Assembly: GCF_006517625.1 (NCBI RefSeq)
Contig: NZ_VHQI01000001.1
Span: forward strand, 316,180 to 380,179
Direction: 5' to 3'
DNA: 64,000 nucleotides
From: Mixta tenebrionis
Lineage (GTDB): Bacteria > Pseudomonadota > Gammaproteobacteria > Enterobacterales > Enterobacteriaceae
Shown here: one piece after another, positions 1-28,962 of the stretch
How positions within the stretch are numbered: position 1 is the stretch's first letter
Layout: every line of letters begins with the position of its first letter
Program-made: the position numbers and the translations under genes
Notes under the pieces: model-generated
Databases searched by the model: none
Told to the model about the DNA's origin: nothing
What the model saw: the letters and a program-made list of their open reading frames with translations, nothing else

Positions 1-320
1 TCTTCATGGATATAGTCCGCCAGCGGCCCGCTTTTACCGGTAGGATGCAGGTTAATGGTGGGAATGCCCCGTTTCGGATAGAGCCCGCAGCGCAGGGTGC
101 CGCCGCAGTCGATCACCATCAGGCCGATCTCCTCCTCCGGCGGCTCGCCGTTTTTAAACACGTCCAGCGCGGGCCAGCCGGTCAGCTCGCACAGGCGTTC
201 AACAACCGAAGGGCAGATGCCCCCGGTGATATAGGCGATTTTTTTCCCTGGCGTTACGGCAATTTTTAACGGGCCGCCCCAGCCTTTACTGCCCCTGCTG
301 ATTAACAGATATTTTTCCAT
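1..320 (-). CDS. PTS glucitol/sorbitol-type EIIB (SrlE-like), N-terminal part only
   Basis: The reading frame runs off the left window edge, leaving about 106 residues. It matches the start of E. coli SrlE (glucitol EIIB/C) as I recall it, with the tracts [44 protein letters not shown] and [17 protein letters not shown]. Cys72 in DCGGTLRCG is the probable phosphorylated cysteine. In this family the protein phosphorylates an incoming polyol at the inner membrane together with EIIC and EIIA, which should lie further left. The start ATG follows AGAGGAAGCGAGAG. It lies 28 bp downstream of pdxA2 on the same strand, so the two are probably cotranscribed. Given the neighbours, sorbitol is an unlikely substrate; a four-carbon compound is more likely (inference). 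Confidence 0.85.
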
Positions 321-348
321 CTCTCGCTTCCTCTTTGCAGCCAACGTC

Positions 349-1362
349 TCAGGCCTGGCCGTGCTTCATCTTCCAGTAGCGCGCGGCTACCAGCGTCGAT
401 TCCAGCATGCTGACCGTGCCCGCCTTGCCGGTGCCGGCAATATCAAACGCGGTGCCGTGATCCACTGAACTGCGCATAAACGGCAGGCCGAAGGTAATGG
501 TGACGGAGCGTTCAAAATCGAGCGTTTTACAGGCGATATGCCCCTGATCGTGATAAAGCGAGAGGATGGCGTCGTAGTTGCCCAGTTTGCCAAGGTGGAA
601 TACCGAATCCGCCGGCACCGGGCCGACGGCGTTGATGCCCATCTCCTGCGCGGCTTTGACCGCCGGAATCAGGTTATCCGCCTCTTCATGACCAAACAGA
701 CCGTTGTCGGAGCCATGCGGATTTAGCGCCGCTACCGCAATACGCGGCCGGGCAATATTCAGCGCGGTAAATTCATGGTGGATCTGCTGGATGCAGGCCA
801 GCACGCGCTCTTTACTGGCGTAATCGCAGGCCGCTTTCAGCGCCATATGGCGGCTGACAAAAAAGACGCGCAGGTTATGTACGTGGAACATGGTCAACCC
901 ATAATCGGAATGGGTTTCCACCTGATAGATTTCGGTATGCCCCGGCAGCTTGCAGCCTGCCAGCTTGATCGCCTCTTTATGTATCGGCGCGGTAGATACC
1001 ACGTCGATATCCCCTGCCAGCCCCAGCTCGATCGATTTCATAACGTAATCAAGCGACATCTTGCCCGCCAGCGGCTGCACTTTGCCCCAGACGATGCTGT
1101 CGCAGTCATACTGCTGCGGCTCCAGCACATCGATGGCGCCCCAGCTAAAGCGCGCCTGGCTGGGATGAGTAATGTTATGGATGGGAAAATGACAGCCCTG
1201 AATTTTCATTGCCCGCTCAATAATCGCTACGGAACCGATCACGAAAGGACGGCATTCCTGATAAACGCTTTTTTCCATCAGGGTGGCGACGACGATCTCC
1301 GGGCCGATGCCGGCCGGATCGCCCAGGGTCAGTGCGACTACAGGTTTTTTCTCATGCGCCAT
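349..1362 (-). CDS. pdxA2: 4-hydroxythreonine-4-phosphate dehydrogenase family protein, PdxA2-type
   Basis: 337 residues, the normal length for the PdxA family. The N-terminal motif [13 protein letters not shown] (12-24) and the metal-site motifs GHTE (141-144), NPHGSDNG (214-221) and YHDQGHI (270-276) are all present, so the enzyme should be active. Biosynthetic PdxA oxidises 4-phosphohydroxy-L-threonine in vitamin B6 synthesis; PdxA2 paralogs oxidise and decarboxylate 4-phospho-threonate or -erythronate to dihydroxyacetone phosphate. Location beside a PTS gene and an EryH-type isomerase, away from ksgA/surA, points to the catabolic paralog. The start at 1362 is chosen because GAGGGAGAAGAT precedes it and the protein homology begins there; an in-frame ATG 33 bp upstream lacks such a site. 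It faces the isomerase gene across a shared promoter region. Confidence 0.9.
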
Positions 1363-1602
1363 ATCTTCTCCCTCACAATAGTTAATTATGTTCATATGTT
1401 CACTTACTTAACATGTGATCAAAAACATATCCGATGAATACCCTGTTTATAGTGACTGATATCACATTTAAAATTTTCACAGCGCTTTCGTGTTAATTTT
1501 GTGATCTAACATATGTTCAATAATAAATAATATGTTCACAGCACAAAGGCGGTGATAAAAGCATTGCCTGACAGGCTGAATTTTTTGCAAAGGAGCAGAG
1601 CA
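1363..1602. promoter_or_regulatory. Divergent promoter region with four ATATGTTCA repeats
   Basis: This 240-bp AT-rich gap separates the pdxA2/EIIB transcript from the isomerase/regulator transcript. The 8-mer TATGTTCA occurs four times in the same orientation: 1387-1394, 1395-1402, 1512-1519 and 1531-1538; the last two are preceded by A, as is the first. Two copies sit just upstream of pdxA2 and two sit upstream of the isomerase gene, an arrangement expected of operators. The adjacent SorC-family regulator is the natural candidate to bind them (inference). A CRP-like site lies midway. Confidence 0.6.
1451..1466. promoter_or_regulatory. CRP-like binding site in the divergent promoter
   Basis: AGTGA-N6-TCACA differs from the CRP consensus TGTGA-N6-TCACA at one position and has AT-rich flanks. 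A central CRP site between two divergent sugar-use transcripts fits catabolite control. Assigned by eye only. Confidence 0.55.
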
Positions 1603-2397
1603 ATGAAAAAAGTGTGGGTAGGCACCAGCTGGAAGATGAATAAACCGCTATCGGAAGCGCAGGCCTGGTGCGAAGCGCTGGCGTACCTGCTGCCGCCGGT
1701 GCTGCATGAGGCAGTGCAGCCCTTTGTGATCCCGCCTTTTACCGCCATTCAGCCGGTTACCCGCTGGCTGGCGGAGCAGCAGCTGCCCTGCCTGACCGGC
1801 GGGCAAAATATGCATGAAGCGGAAAGCGGCGCCTGGACCGGCGAGATTTCCGCCAGCATGCTGCTGGAGGCAGGAGCCTCGCTGGTTGAGCTGGGCCATT
1901 CCGAACGGCGGGCCAGCTTTAATGAGAGCGACGGCGCCATCAACCGCAAAGTTCATACAGCCCTGCGGCACGGCCTGCGCCCGCTGATCTGTATCGGCGA
2001 CAGCGCCGAGGAAAAAGCCTGGGGAGTTTCGCCGGAAACGGTGATCCGCCAGGCGAAAATCGCGCTGCACGGCCTGACGGCGTCCGAGGCGCAGCGATGT
2101 CTCCTCGCCTGGGAACCGATCTGGGCTATCGGCGCGGGCGGCACGCCCGCCGCGCCTGAAGAGGCCGGCGCGATGCACCGTCTGCTGCGCATCGCGCTGC
2201 AGGAAAAATATGGCGCGCAGGCAGGCGCGCGCATCCCGCTGCTGTACGGCGGCAGCGTAAATTTGCAAAACGCGGCGCCTTTGCTGCAACAGGCTGATAT
2301 TGATGGCTTATTTATCGGGCGAGCGGCGTGGGACGCCGCCGGTTACTGCCGCATCGTACAGAGCGTAGTGCAGGATTTTATCCTGAAAGCGCTGTAG
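1603..2397 (+). CDS. EryH/LerI-type phosphoketose isomerase of the triose-phosphate isomerase family
   Basis: 264 residues with a full TIM-barrel signature: Lys11 in GTSWKMNK, His99 in ELGHSERR (96-103), catalytic Glu171 in WEPIWAIG (170-177), the phosphate loop YGGSVN (215-220) and GLFIGR near the C-terminus. Classical triose-phosphate isomerases have GNWK at the first site; here it is TSWK. That change, and the tracts IPPFTA, GQNMH and GAWTGEIS, recall Brucella EryH (TpiA2), an L-erythrulose-1-phosphate isomerase. It may act on a tetrulose phosphate, or pass DHAP made by PdxA2 to glycolysis; sequence alone cannot decide. The start at 1603 follows AAGGAGCAGAGCA; an upstream in-frame GTG at 1552 has no such site. 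The regulator gene follows 33 bp later. Confidence 0.85.
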   Translation: MKKVWVGTSWKMNKPLSEAQAWCEALAYLLPPVLHEAVQPFVIPPFTAIQPVTRWLAEQQLPCLTGGQNMHEAESGAWTGEISASMLLEAGASLVELGHSERRASFNESDGAINRKVHTALRHGLRPLICIGDSAEEKAWGVSPETVIRQAKIALHGLTASEAQRCLLAWEPIWAIGAGGTPAAPEEAGAMHRLLRIALQEKYGAQAGARIPLLYGGSVNLQNAAPLLQQADIDGLFIGRAAWDAAGYCRIVQSVVQDFILKAL

Positions 2398-2430
2398 TAT
2401 GGTGCCTGTTATCTCAGATGGAAAAAGAAT

Positions 2431-3396
2431 GTGATGAGTGAACAAGATGCAGATTATGAACTTCTTACCGAAATTGCCGTAGCCTATTATGAGCGCGAGC
2501 AGACGCAGGAAGAGATTGCCAGACGCTTCGGTATTTCACGCATCAAGGTCGGCAGGCTGCTGAAAAAGGCCCGCAGCGAAGGGATCGTGGAGATTAACGT
2601 AAAATATCATCCGGTATTCAGTTCGCAGATCGAGCAGCAGTTTATTTCTCATTTCGGCATCAAGCGCGCGCTAATCGCGCTGGATCATCATGATGAGGAT
2701 GAACAGCGTCAGCAGGTAGCGGCGCTGGTCAGCAGCTATCTCGCCAGCATTCTGAAAAATGATATGACCGTAACGGTAGGCCAGGGGCGCAACGTCGCCG
2801 CCGTCGCCAACCACGTCGGCATCTTCCCGGAACGCCGCTGCCGTTTTATCTGCGGCATCGGCGGCACCAAGCGCGATAATCAGCTGATAGACGCTGACCA
2901 TATCAGCCGTAATCTGGCGCGCAAGTTCAACGGCTTTAGCGAAACGCTTTACGCGCCCGCCTATGTGGAAAGCTCGGAGCTGCGCACCGCCTTTATGCAG
3001 AATCGCCTGATCAAAGCGACGCTGGAACAGGCGAGCAAGGCGGACGTGGCGCTGATTGGGCTGGGCGATATGAATGAGAACAGCTTTATGGTGCAGCTGG
3101 GCTGGTTTACGCCGCAGGAGATCATCACCGCTCGTCAGGAACAGGGCGTAGTGGGCGATCTGGCGGGCTACAGCTTTTTTAATATTCAGGGCAAGCCCGC
3201 CGATACCGTAATGAACGATCGCGTAATCGGCCTGAGCCTTGAGCAGCTGCGCGCCATCCCCTGCGTTATCGCCATCGCCGCGGAAAGCACCAAGGCCACC
3301 GCCATTCTCGGCGCGCTGCGCACCGGCGTCATTGACGTGCTGGCTACCAGCGCCTCCAATGCCCGCACGGTGATGAATATGCACAAGGCGCTGTAG
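2431..3396 (+). CDS. SorC/DeoR-family sugar-responsive transcriptional regulator
   Basis: 321 residues with a typical SorC layout: an N-terminal helix-turn-helix (about 24-50, reading QTQEEIARRFGISRIKVGRL) and a C-terminal phosphosugar-binding domain of the NagB/RpiA-like fold, seen in tracts such as TVTVGQGRNVAA and IGLGDMNE. Family members are usually encoded next to the sugar operon they control and respond to a phosphorylated intermediate. It is transcribed behind the isomerase gene and faces a promoter region with four copies of a 9-bp repeat, its probable operators. The start may be GTG 2431 or ATG 2434; GGAAAAAGA upstream allows either. Downstream cobB converges on it. Confidence 0.88.
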   Translation: MMSEQDADYELLTEIAVAYYEREQTQEEIARRFGISRIKVGRLLKKARSEGIVEINVKYHPVFSSQIEQQFISHFGIKRALIALDHHDEDEQRQQVAALVSSYLASILKNDMTVTVGQGRNVAAVANHVGIFPERRCRFICGIGGTKRDNQLIDADHISRNLARKFNGFSETLYAPAYVESSELRTAFMQNRLIKATLEQASKADVALIGLGDMNENSFMVQLGWFTPQEIITARQEQGVVGDLAGYSFFNIQGKPADTVMNDRVIGLSLEQLRAIPCVIAIAAESTKATAILGALRTGVIDVLATSASNARTVMNMHKAL

Positions 3397-27528: not shown

Positions 27529-28962
27529 TTAACTGTTACGGATGTAATCATCCATTTCAGTTTTCAGGTTATCGGACTTGGTGCCGAAAATAGCCTGTAC
27601 GCCGGAACCCGCAACCACCACGCCGGCGGCGCCCAGTTTTTTCAGGCCAGCCTGATCGACTTTAGCAACGTCAGCCACGCTAACGCGCAGGCGGGTAATA
27701 CAGGCATCGAGGTTGGTGATGTTTTCTTTACCGCCAAACGCCGTGACCAGGTTTGCCGCCATTTCGTTGGCTGTGCCGGTGCTCTGTTCGGTCGTCGCAT
27801 CTTCACGGCCAGGCGTTTTCAGATTCAGTTTCGCGATCAGCACGCGGAAAATAGCGTAGTAAATCAGGCCGTAGATGATACCCACAATCGGGAACAGCCA
27901 GATTTTGCTGCTGTTGCCGCTCAGCACGATAAAGTCGATCAAGCCGTGCGAGAAGCTGGTGCCGTCACGCATACCGAGCAGGATACAAATCGGGAAAGCC
28001 AGACCTGCCAGAATCGCGTGGATAACGTACAGGATCGGCGCCACGAACATAAAGGAGAACTCGATCGGCTCGGTAATACCGGTCAGGAACGAGGTCAGCG
28101 CCGCGGAGATCATGATACCGCCCACTTTCGCGCGATTTTCCGGTTTTGCTGAATGCCAGATAGCGATAGCGGCAGCCGGCAGACCATACATTTTGAACAG
28201 GAAGCCGCCGGAGAGTTTGCCCGCGGTCGGGTCGCCCGCCATGTAACGCGGAATATCGCCGTGGAACACCTGACCAGCCGCATTGGTGAATTCGCCGATC
28301 TGCATCTGGAAAGGTACGTTCCAGATATGGTGCAGACCAAACGGCACCAGCGAACGCTCAATCACGCCGTAGATACCAAAGGCGACAACCGGGTTCTGAT
28401 AGGCGGCCCACTGTGAGAAATCCTGAATCGCGCTGCCGATCGGCGGCCAGATAAAGGAGAGCACCACGCCGAGAACAATCGCCGTCATCCCAGAGATGAT
28501 CGGAACGAAACGTTTACCGGCAAAGAAGCCCAGATACTCAGGCAGCTTAATGCGATAGAAGCGGTTAAACATATAGGCGGCGATGGAGCCGGCGATAATA
28601 CCGCCCAGCACCCCGGTATCCGCCAGATGCTTATCGGCAATCTCCTGCCCCGGCAAATGCAGCACCAGAGGCGCGACCACCGCCATGGTTTTCACCATGA
28701 TGCCGTAAGCGACCACGGCCGCCAGCGCCGAGACGCCATCGTTATTAGTAAAGCCCAGCGCCACGCCGATAGCGAAAATCAGCGGCATATTAGCGAACAC
28801 CGAGCCGCCCGCTTCCGCCATGACATGTGAAACAACAGCAGGCAGCCAGGTGAAGTTTGCCGAGCCGACGCCCAATAAAATACCGGCAATCGGCAACACC
28901 GATACCGGTAGCATGAGCGATTTACCGACCTTTTGCAGGTTTGCAAATGCGTTCTTAAACAT
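27529..28962 (-). CDS. ptsG: PTS glucose-specific EIIBC component PtsG
   Basis: 477 residues, identical in length and nearly so in sequence to E. coli PtsG. The EIIC domain (about 1-385) has the sugar-site motif ITEPIEFSF; a linker with LKTPGRED leads to EIIB, whose phosphorylated Cys421 lies in [10 protein letters not shown]. It imports glucose and releases glucose 6-phosphate, taking phosphate from EIIA-Glc. Upstream sequence keeps Mlc- and CRP-type sites and an SgrS-type pairing tract. It ends the conserved block before the accessory sgc/rhi genes; in E. coli fhuE is next. Confidence 0.98.

Follow-up and report, generated by a model that had tools for sequence, protein, structure and literature searches.

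A glucitol-type EIIB domain built into a DUF1537 kinase in a putative sugar-acid operon of Mixta tenebrionis

Sugar acids of four carbons are reportedly broken down by pathways that combine a DUF1537 kinase with a PdxA2 dehydrogenase (DtnK, DenK, OtnK), which Zhang and colleagues are said to have described in 2016. In the phosphotransferase system (PTS), an EIIB is normally the last soluble stop ahead of the membrane EIIC, and DhaKLM is a precedent for a PTS that donates phosphate without transport. Here, we describe a locus of Mixta tenebrionis in which a glucitol-type EIIB (EIIB-Gut) is the N-terminal domain of a DUF1537 kinase. It lies at the left edge of a stretch of 64,000 nucleotides (the window; C1:316180-380179, C1 being contig NZ_VHQI01000001.1). 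Two more systems are close to it: according to PMC10079672, the KdgT of R. eutropha let E. coli use D-threonate, and according to PMC5992420, EryH (TpiA2) and EryI (RpiB) of Brucella act en route to erythrose 4-phosphate.

A first-pass annotation of the window had proposed that a PTS takes up and phosphorylates a four-carbon compound here. Its observation was partly confirmed and its interpretation is partly supported: the link of the PTS to a short-chain sugar-acid locus holds, but, judging from sequence, we prefer control of the kinase by the PTS to PTS transport, and consider it about an even call that the locus is a sugar-acid catabolic operon with a kinase under such control.

The EIIB-kinase fusion and its PTS partners

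The left edge of the window falls inside the first gene, and the locus extends beyond it; the left flank was read from the genome contig (locus L001). The open reading frame (ORF) at window positions 3-344, annotated as an SrlE-like EIIB, does belong to the EIIB-Gut family but is not a subunit of a PTS permease. It is the opening part of a 578-aa ORF on the minus strand (window 1..344, whole ORF C1:314787-316523) that continues as SBD_N and NBD_C and thus has both domains of a DUF1537 four-carbon acid sugar kinase. The three domains are EIIBC-GUT_N (PF03612, residues 14-129, E 2.3e-47, over model positions 3-118 of 184), SBD_N (PF07005, residues 138-363, E 3.5e-58) and NBD_C (PF17042, residues 391-565, E 5e-29). 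Translation likely starts at the ATG at 320, as judged by a GGA-rich stretch upstream and by alignment to relatives. Identity of the EIIB domain to the N-terminal portion of SrlE-type ORFs in other Enterobacterales is mostly 55-66%. The domain has the motif DCGGTLRC, the first Cys of which is window codon 107-105. Foldseek and VIA-align matches covered the kinase part and none the EIIB part, which is not evidence against an EIIB fold. The earlier idea that the PTS replaces the kinase fails, since the DUF1537 kinase is the remainder of the same protein.

The fusion is neither a product of chance nor an assembly fault, because the arrangement recurs in many genera. In a scan of named genomes, EIIB and kinase were joined in 16 of 24 loci (Klebsiella, Raoultella, Kosakonia, Pantoea, Intestinirhabdus, Pectobacterium, Tolumonas, Zophobihabitans, Gilliamella, Mixta and Enterobacter sp. 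EA-1), seven were without EIIB (Actinobacillus, Actinotignum, Actinobaculum and Clostridiales) and one was cut. Two of the 16 are disrupted (L073 and L080); in Enterobacter sp. EA-1 (L055/L080, CP025776.1), most cluster genes are split in the assembly, which resembles sequencing error. In a family-level sample, 11 of 295 genomes matched at E 1e-70. The fusion is full-length in nine of them, counting G396 with its in-frame stop, and broken in G316, while G315 has a kinase that lacks the EIIB. At order level, 84/295 genomes matched at E 0.001, and only the match of the window genome spanned both parts. Three of 44 genomes matched in the family of Gilliamella wkB108, and 8 of 391 did so in a search of Clostridia at E 1e-50, the query genome giving the only close match. 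Spread by plasmids was considered and rejected: the protein was found in 1 of 72,556 plasmid records (tblastn, E 1e-60), a Klebsiella record with chromosomal-type genes. Megablast with 2,501 bases gave no match in E. coli genomes. Full-text literature searches, judged by titles and abstract openings, returned nothing on an EIIB::kinase fusion.

The genome of the window organism encodes one EIIA-Gut and one EIIB-Gut, both at this locus, and has three HPr-family matches. EIIC-Gut (PF03608) had no match in this genome; the E. coli positive control did match. Of the parts of a glucitol permease, the EIIA and EIIB domains are thus present with a His and a Cys that we take to be the phosphorylated residues (the former presumably SrlB His43), and EIIC is not. 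Since the genome has no EIIC-Gut, EIIA and EIIB have no glucitol permease to serve. The EIIA gene (C1:313255-313623, minus strand, PF03829 E 8.3e-36) lies to the left of the window, as does that of a KdgT-type permease (C1:313625-314659, minus strand, PF03812 E 5.8e-109). Import and phosphorylation in one PTS step, as the first-pass annotation had suggested, are therefore ruled out, to the extent that PF03608 is able to detect EIIC, because a kinase and a KdgT-type permease are present in the operon and EIIC-Gut is absent.

PF03829 and PF03608 were searched for in 23 genomes with the fusion (the window genome, nine from the family sample, G615 and twelve from loci of the named scan); a Tolumonas metagenome-assembled genome (MAG; G624) with one EIIA and no EIIC was left out, its locus being cut before the EIIB. 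EIIA-Gut was present in all 23 and stood beside the fusion in 20. The other three (Tolumonas osonensis, Zophobihabitans and Gilliamella wkB108) all have EIIC-Gut, and an EIIA elsewhere. EIIC-Gut was found in 13 of the 23, and the 10 genomes without it all have EIIA beside the fusion. A cluster EIIA also occurs in K. pneumoniae ATCC 13883 (L059), outside this genome-wide scan. Furthermore, neither EIIA-Gut nor EIIC-Gut was found in the seven scanned relatives with an EIIB-less kinase (G315, G577 and G625-G629).

The phosphosites are conserved as well. All the fusions listed retain the first Cys of [DE]CGGTLRC, as does the diverged EIIB paralogue L098, in which the second Cys is changed. Among the 20 cluster EIIAs, 18 have the EIIA His; counting other copies, 22 of 23 fusion genomes have a His-bearing EIIA, the exception being Pantoea sp. 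A4 (G570). The median ratio of nonsynonymous to synonymous substitution (dN/dS), from 55 pairs among 11 genomes after pairs with no or saturated dS had been dropped, was 0.08 for the EIIB (41 pairs), 0.09 for the kinase (45 pairs) and 0.17 for the EIIA (17 pairs). The EIIB is constrained as strongly as the kinase.

Because five of the seven EIIB-less relatives belong to other phyla, G315 is the informative case. Its kinase ORF opens with MEKHSLMGKGSK, which resembles the EIIB start MEKHLLISKGSK of relatives, and then enters the kinase domain. This remnant is not significant by BLAST (E 0.47) and is read as EIIB from position and likeness. No EIIA or EIIC match was found in the G315 genome, and the 19 kb around the kinase had no meaningful match to EIIA, RpiB, TIM or SorC. 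With a dN/dS of 0.05-0.19 against five relatives, the G315 kinase is under purifying selection. The simplest account is that G315 lost both PTS parts while a working kinase remained.

Companion genes and the control region

Leftward from the fusion, one strand carries the genes for the KdgT-type permease, EIIA-Gut, RpiB (C1:312724-313182, minus strand, PF02502) and transaldolase (C1:311755-312705, minus strand, PF00923), followed by potD. Of the genes that had been expected there, EIIA and an RpiB-like isomerase are present, whereas EIIC and a polyol dehydrogenase are missing. There is no complete srl operon, the alternative that had been considered. Transketolase is absent from the cluster of the window genome and present in 14 of 33 distinct related neighbourhoods (some on truncated contigs).

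Within the window, the next gene on the minus strand was confirmed as a PdxA-family dehydrogenase (ORF 349..1395, likely start ATG 1362, PF04166 E 7e-95). Its identity as PdxA2 is supported in part. It is nearer to PdxA2-type structures (2hi1, 251 bits; 6e85, D-threonate 4-phosphate dehydrogenase, 235 bits) than to E. coli PdxA (1ps7, 167 bits), but two NCBIfam models named PdxA (PRK03743 and TIGR00557) also accept it, and it scores 277.6, far below the cut-off of 583 of the NCBIfam D-threonate 4-phosphate dehydrogenase model.

On the plus strand follows a TIM-family isomerase (ORF 1552..2397, likely start ATG 1603, PF00121 E 2.6e-68). Its best solved relative is 11ef, an L-erythrulose-1-phosphate isomerase (203 bits) and the sole named EryH/LerI member in the comparison; the best triose-phosphate isomerase (TPI), 1yya, reached 170 bits. 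The protein has the motifs GTSWKMNK, WAIGxGG.PA and GLFIGRAAW, where the compared TPIs have NWKM, WAIGTGK and VGGAS. Among 24 distinct cluster TIMs, GLF[IV]GR[SA]AW is found in all, WAIGxxGxP in 23 (the remaining one is frame-disrupted) and GTSWKMN in 21. The EryH/LerI-like assignment, as first annotated, thus holds at the level of sequence, although an NCBIfam model calls the protein a TPI (see below).

The RpiB passes the general RpiB models of NCBIfam. A TIM gene and an RpiB gene are both found close to the kinase gene in 22 of the 33 neighbourhoods from this kinase subfamily, compared to 0 of 20 other DUF1537 neighbourhoods (Fisher 4e-7, relatedness ignored). The 33 are 36 loci minus three second loci of one genome, and two of them are contigs of <4 kb; the control neighbourhoods were hand-picked, and 11 of them have a PdxA match, two KdgT and two transaldolase. 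In a Clostridiales MAG and in Actinobaculum, the TIM and RpiB genes adjoin. Because TIM and RpiB accompany this kinase subfamily, its pathway probably leads to an erythrulose phosphate, with erythrose 4-phosphate as the likely further product.

A SorC-type transcriptional regulator (2431..3396, plus strand, PF04198 E 1e-77) comes next, as annotated before. The predicted shared promoter region was found as one divergent intergenic region of 240 bp between the likely PdxA and TIM starts (1363..1602, no strand). It contains ATATGTTCA repeats at 1394, 1511 and 1530 and, by resemblance to the consensus, a CRP-like site, AGTGA-N6-TCACA, at 1451-1466. The TCACA half is present in 14 of 14 aligned sequences, its own included, and TATGTTCA or its complement in 11 of 14; no sequence of the 14 has the exact TGTGA-N6-TCACA. 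CRP control, if true, would be a second link of the locus to the PTS.

Elsewhere in the genome, a second DUF1537 match that contains one TAA lies at C12:525692-526948 (L159), with a PdxA-like match nearby. Window positions 27531-28037 match part of a Klebsiella ptsG at 60%. Left of the window, a 303-aa Mig-14/GNAT-like ORF (L001:6412-7323, C1:308411-309322) lies between potB- and potC-like genes, both named by eye; potB and potC adjoin in the Klebsiella record L002.

Proposed mechanism and rival explanations

From the gene content, the fusion, the conserved phosphosites and the co-occurrence of EIIA and EIIB, we infer a phosphorelay, its regulatory sense, a substrate and the reactions of a pathway. 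The gene cluster probably breaks down a sugar acid. In our model, the KdgT-type permease would import it, the DUF1537 domain would phosphorylate it with ATP and the PdxA-family enzyme would oxidize its 3-hydroxyl and decarboxylate it to a ketose phosphate. Conversion of an erythrulose phosphate to D-erythrose 4-phosphate would then fall to the EryH/LerI-type and RpiB-type isomerases, and transaldolase would feed this product into central metabolism. Phosphate from HPr would pass via the EIIA-Gut of the operon to the EIIB-Gut domain on the kinase, where the relay would end because there is no EIIC. The relay would most likely switch the kinase according to how far the PTS is phosphorylated, and the sugar acid would be used only in the absence of preferred PTS sugars.

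PdxA enzymes oxidize a 3-hydroxyl, and decarboxylation follows. By this chemistry, the 4-phosphate of a C4 acid would give dihydroxyacetone phosphate (DHAP), the 5-phosphate of a linear C5 acid erythrulose 4-phosphate, and the 4-phosphate of 2-hydroxymethyl-tetronate (isoapionate) erythrulose 1-phosphate. A linear pentonate was rejected as substrate: D-erythrulose 4-phosphate would form, but the TIM would be left idle. Among these three acid types, the isoapionate type alone would employ TIM, RpiB and transaldolase; the idea comes from retro-biosynthesis on the basis of apionate chemistry. The kinase scores 201 against the NCBIfam D-threonate kinase cut-off of 450 and misses the 3-oxo-tetronate and 3-oxo-isoapionate models too. 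A bolder reading, which we consider possible but less likely than not, is that a transporter-less PTS branch (HPr to EIIA-Gut to EIIB-Gut) acts on the kinase in cis, gating or driving it, as part of a so far undescribed route that takes a C5 acid, perhaps branched and isoapionate-like, via erythrulose phosphate to erythrose 4-phosphate.

Several findings weigh against a sugar-acid operon with a PTS-controlled kinase. The cluster EIIA stays under both NCBIfam glucitol-EIIA cut-offs and the KdgT-type permease under its own. Pantoea sp. A4 keeps the fusion with an only EIIA (L064:11826-12164) that has no His, and the cluster EIIA of G615 (L125:1504-1851, adjoining the TIM gene) has lost it as well, with a His-bearing EIIA elsewhere in that genome. 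The fusion genomes are related to one another, the fusion gene is disrupted in the assembly of three of the 23 (G316, G396 and G576), and the tie between a missing cluster EIIA and the presence of EIIC (3/3 versus 10/20) is not significant (Fisher p 0.23). On the enzyme side, NCBIfam NF000722 names the TIM triose-phosphate isomerase, above cut-off; two Pasteurellaceae-type TIMs and one of Clostridiales carry GTN.KM, like TPI at the Asn; and the RpiB scores 173.6 against the 240 of the erythrulose-4-phosphate isomerase model (EryI/DerI, NF051858). In 11 of the 33 neighbourhoods, TIM, RpiB or both are absent, and the minimal clusters L052, L063 and L064 consist of PdxA, fusion, KdgT and EIIA only. 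These minimal clusters argue against an obligatory erythrulose phosphate route.

The minimal clusters also fit an ordinary tetronate pathway, in which kinase and PdxA2 would turn threonate or erythronate into DHAP and the TIM would work as a TPI, leaving accessory roles to RpiB, transaldolase and the PTS domains. KdgT, a DUF1537 kinase and PdxA2 do convert D-threonate to DHAP in R. eutropha, according to PMC10079672, and the PdxA protein is nearer to PdxA2-type structures. Such a pathway is possible, but we lean against it: kinase and PdxA fall far below the D-threonate models, and the TIM resembles EryH/LerI and accompanies RpiB in a way that the other DUF1537 neighbourhoods do not show. It is also imaginable that the EIIB has a catalytic part and hands phosphate derived from phosphoenolpyruvate, with no transport, either to the substrate or to a kinase-bound nucleotide. 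DhaKLM would be the model for such a donor, the EIIA-EIIB pair is complete with conserved phosphosites, and the EIIB stands in cis with the kinase where no EIIC exists. We consider this improbable; the kinase has its own nucleotide domain, NBD_C, its TGGDT and KGG motifs are common to the fusion and to EIIB-less relatives, and the kinase stands without an EIIB in G315 and at seven loci of the named scan. The same relatives, whose kinase manages without EIIB, and the loss of the His in two cluster EIIAs would suit an EIIB that carries no phosphate and serves as a passenger, a scaffold or a purely structural element. This, too, appears unlikely in view of its dN/dS, as low as that of the kinase, the invariant Cys among the fusions listed and the retention of EIIA in every fusion genome.

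Many Enterobacterales, including Klebsiella, have a kinase with a built-in EIIB and an EIIA of its own, and 10 of the 23 genomes scanned have no EIIC. If the proposed relay works, a catabolic kinase would read the state of the PTS directly, of which our literature searches found no description, and the predicted sugar-acid route would enter metabolism at erythrose 4-phosphate. The labels "four-carbon acid sugar kinase" and "PTS glucitol IIA" conceal the link between EIIA and kinase.

Comparison with known systems

The locus shares a KdgT-type importer, a DUF1537 kinase and a PdxA-family oxidative decarboxylase with the DUF1537/PdxA2 pathways. Unlike there, the kinase carries an EIIB-Gut domain, and the cluster adds EIIA-Gut, an EryH/LerI-type TIM, RpiB and transaldolase; from the D-threonate pathway it also differs in that kinase and PdxA miss the D-threonate models. 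With the glucitol PTS (SrlA-SrlE-SrlB), it has in common an EIIB domain that resembles the N terminus of SrlE and an EIIA of the PF03829 family, but the genome has no EIIC (PF03608), and the EIIB is joined to a kinase instead of the membrane part of SrlE. DhaKLM likewise has a PTS relay on a soluble kinase without transport; its domains are unrelated, and the DUF1537 kinase brings a nucleotide domain with it and occurs in relatives without a PTS part. As in the Brucella erythritol pathway, TIM-type and RpiB-type isomerases would lead to D-erythrose 4-phosphate, but here they would be fed by a sugar-acid kinase and PdxA and not by an erythritol kinase and dehydrogenase, as given for Brucella in PMC5992420.

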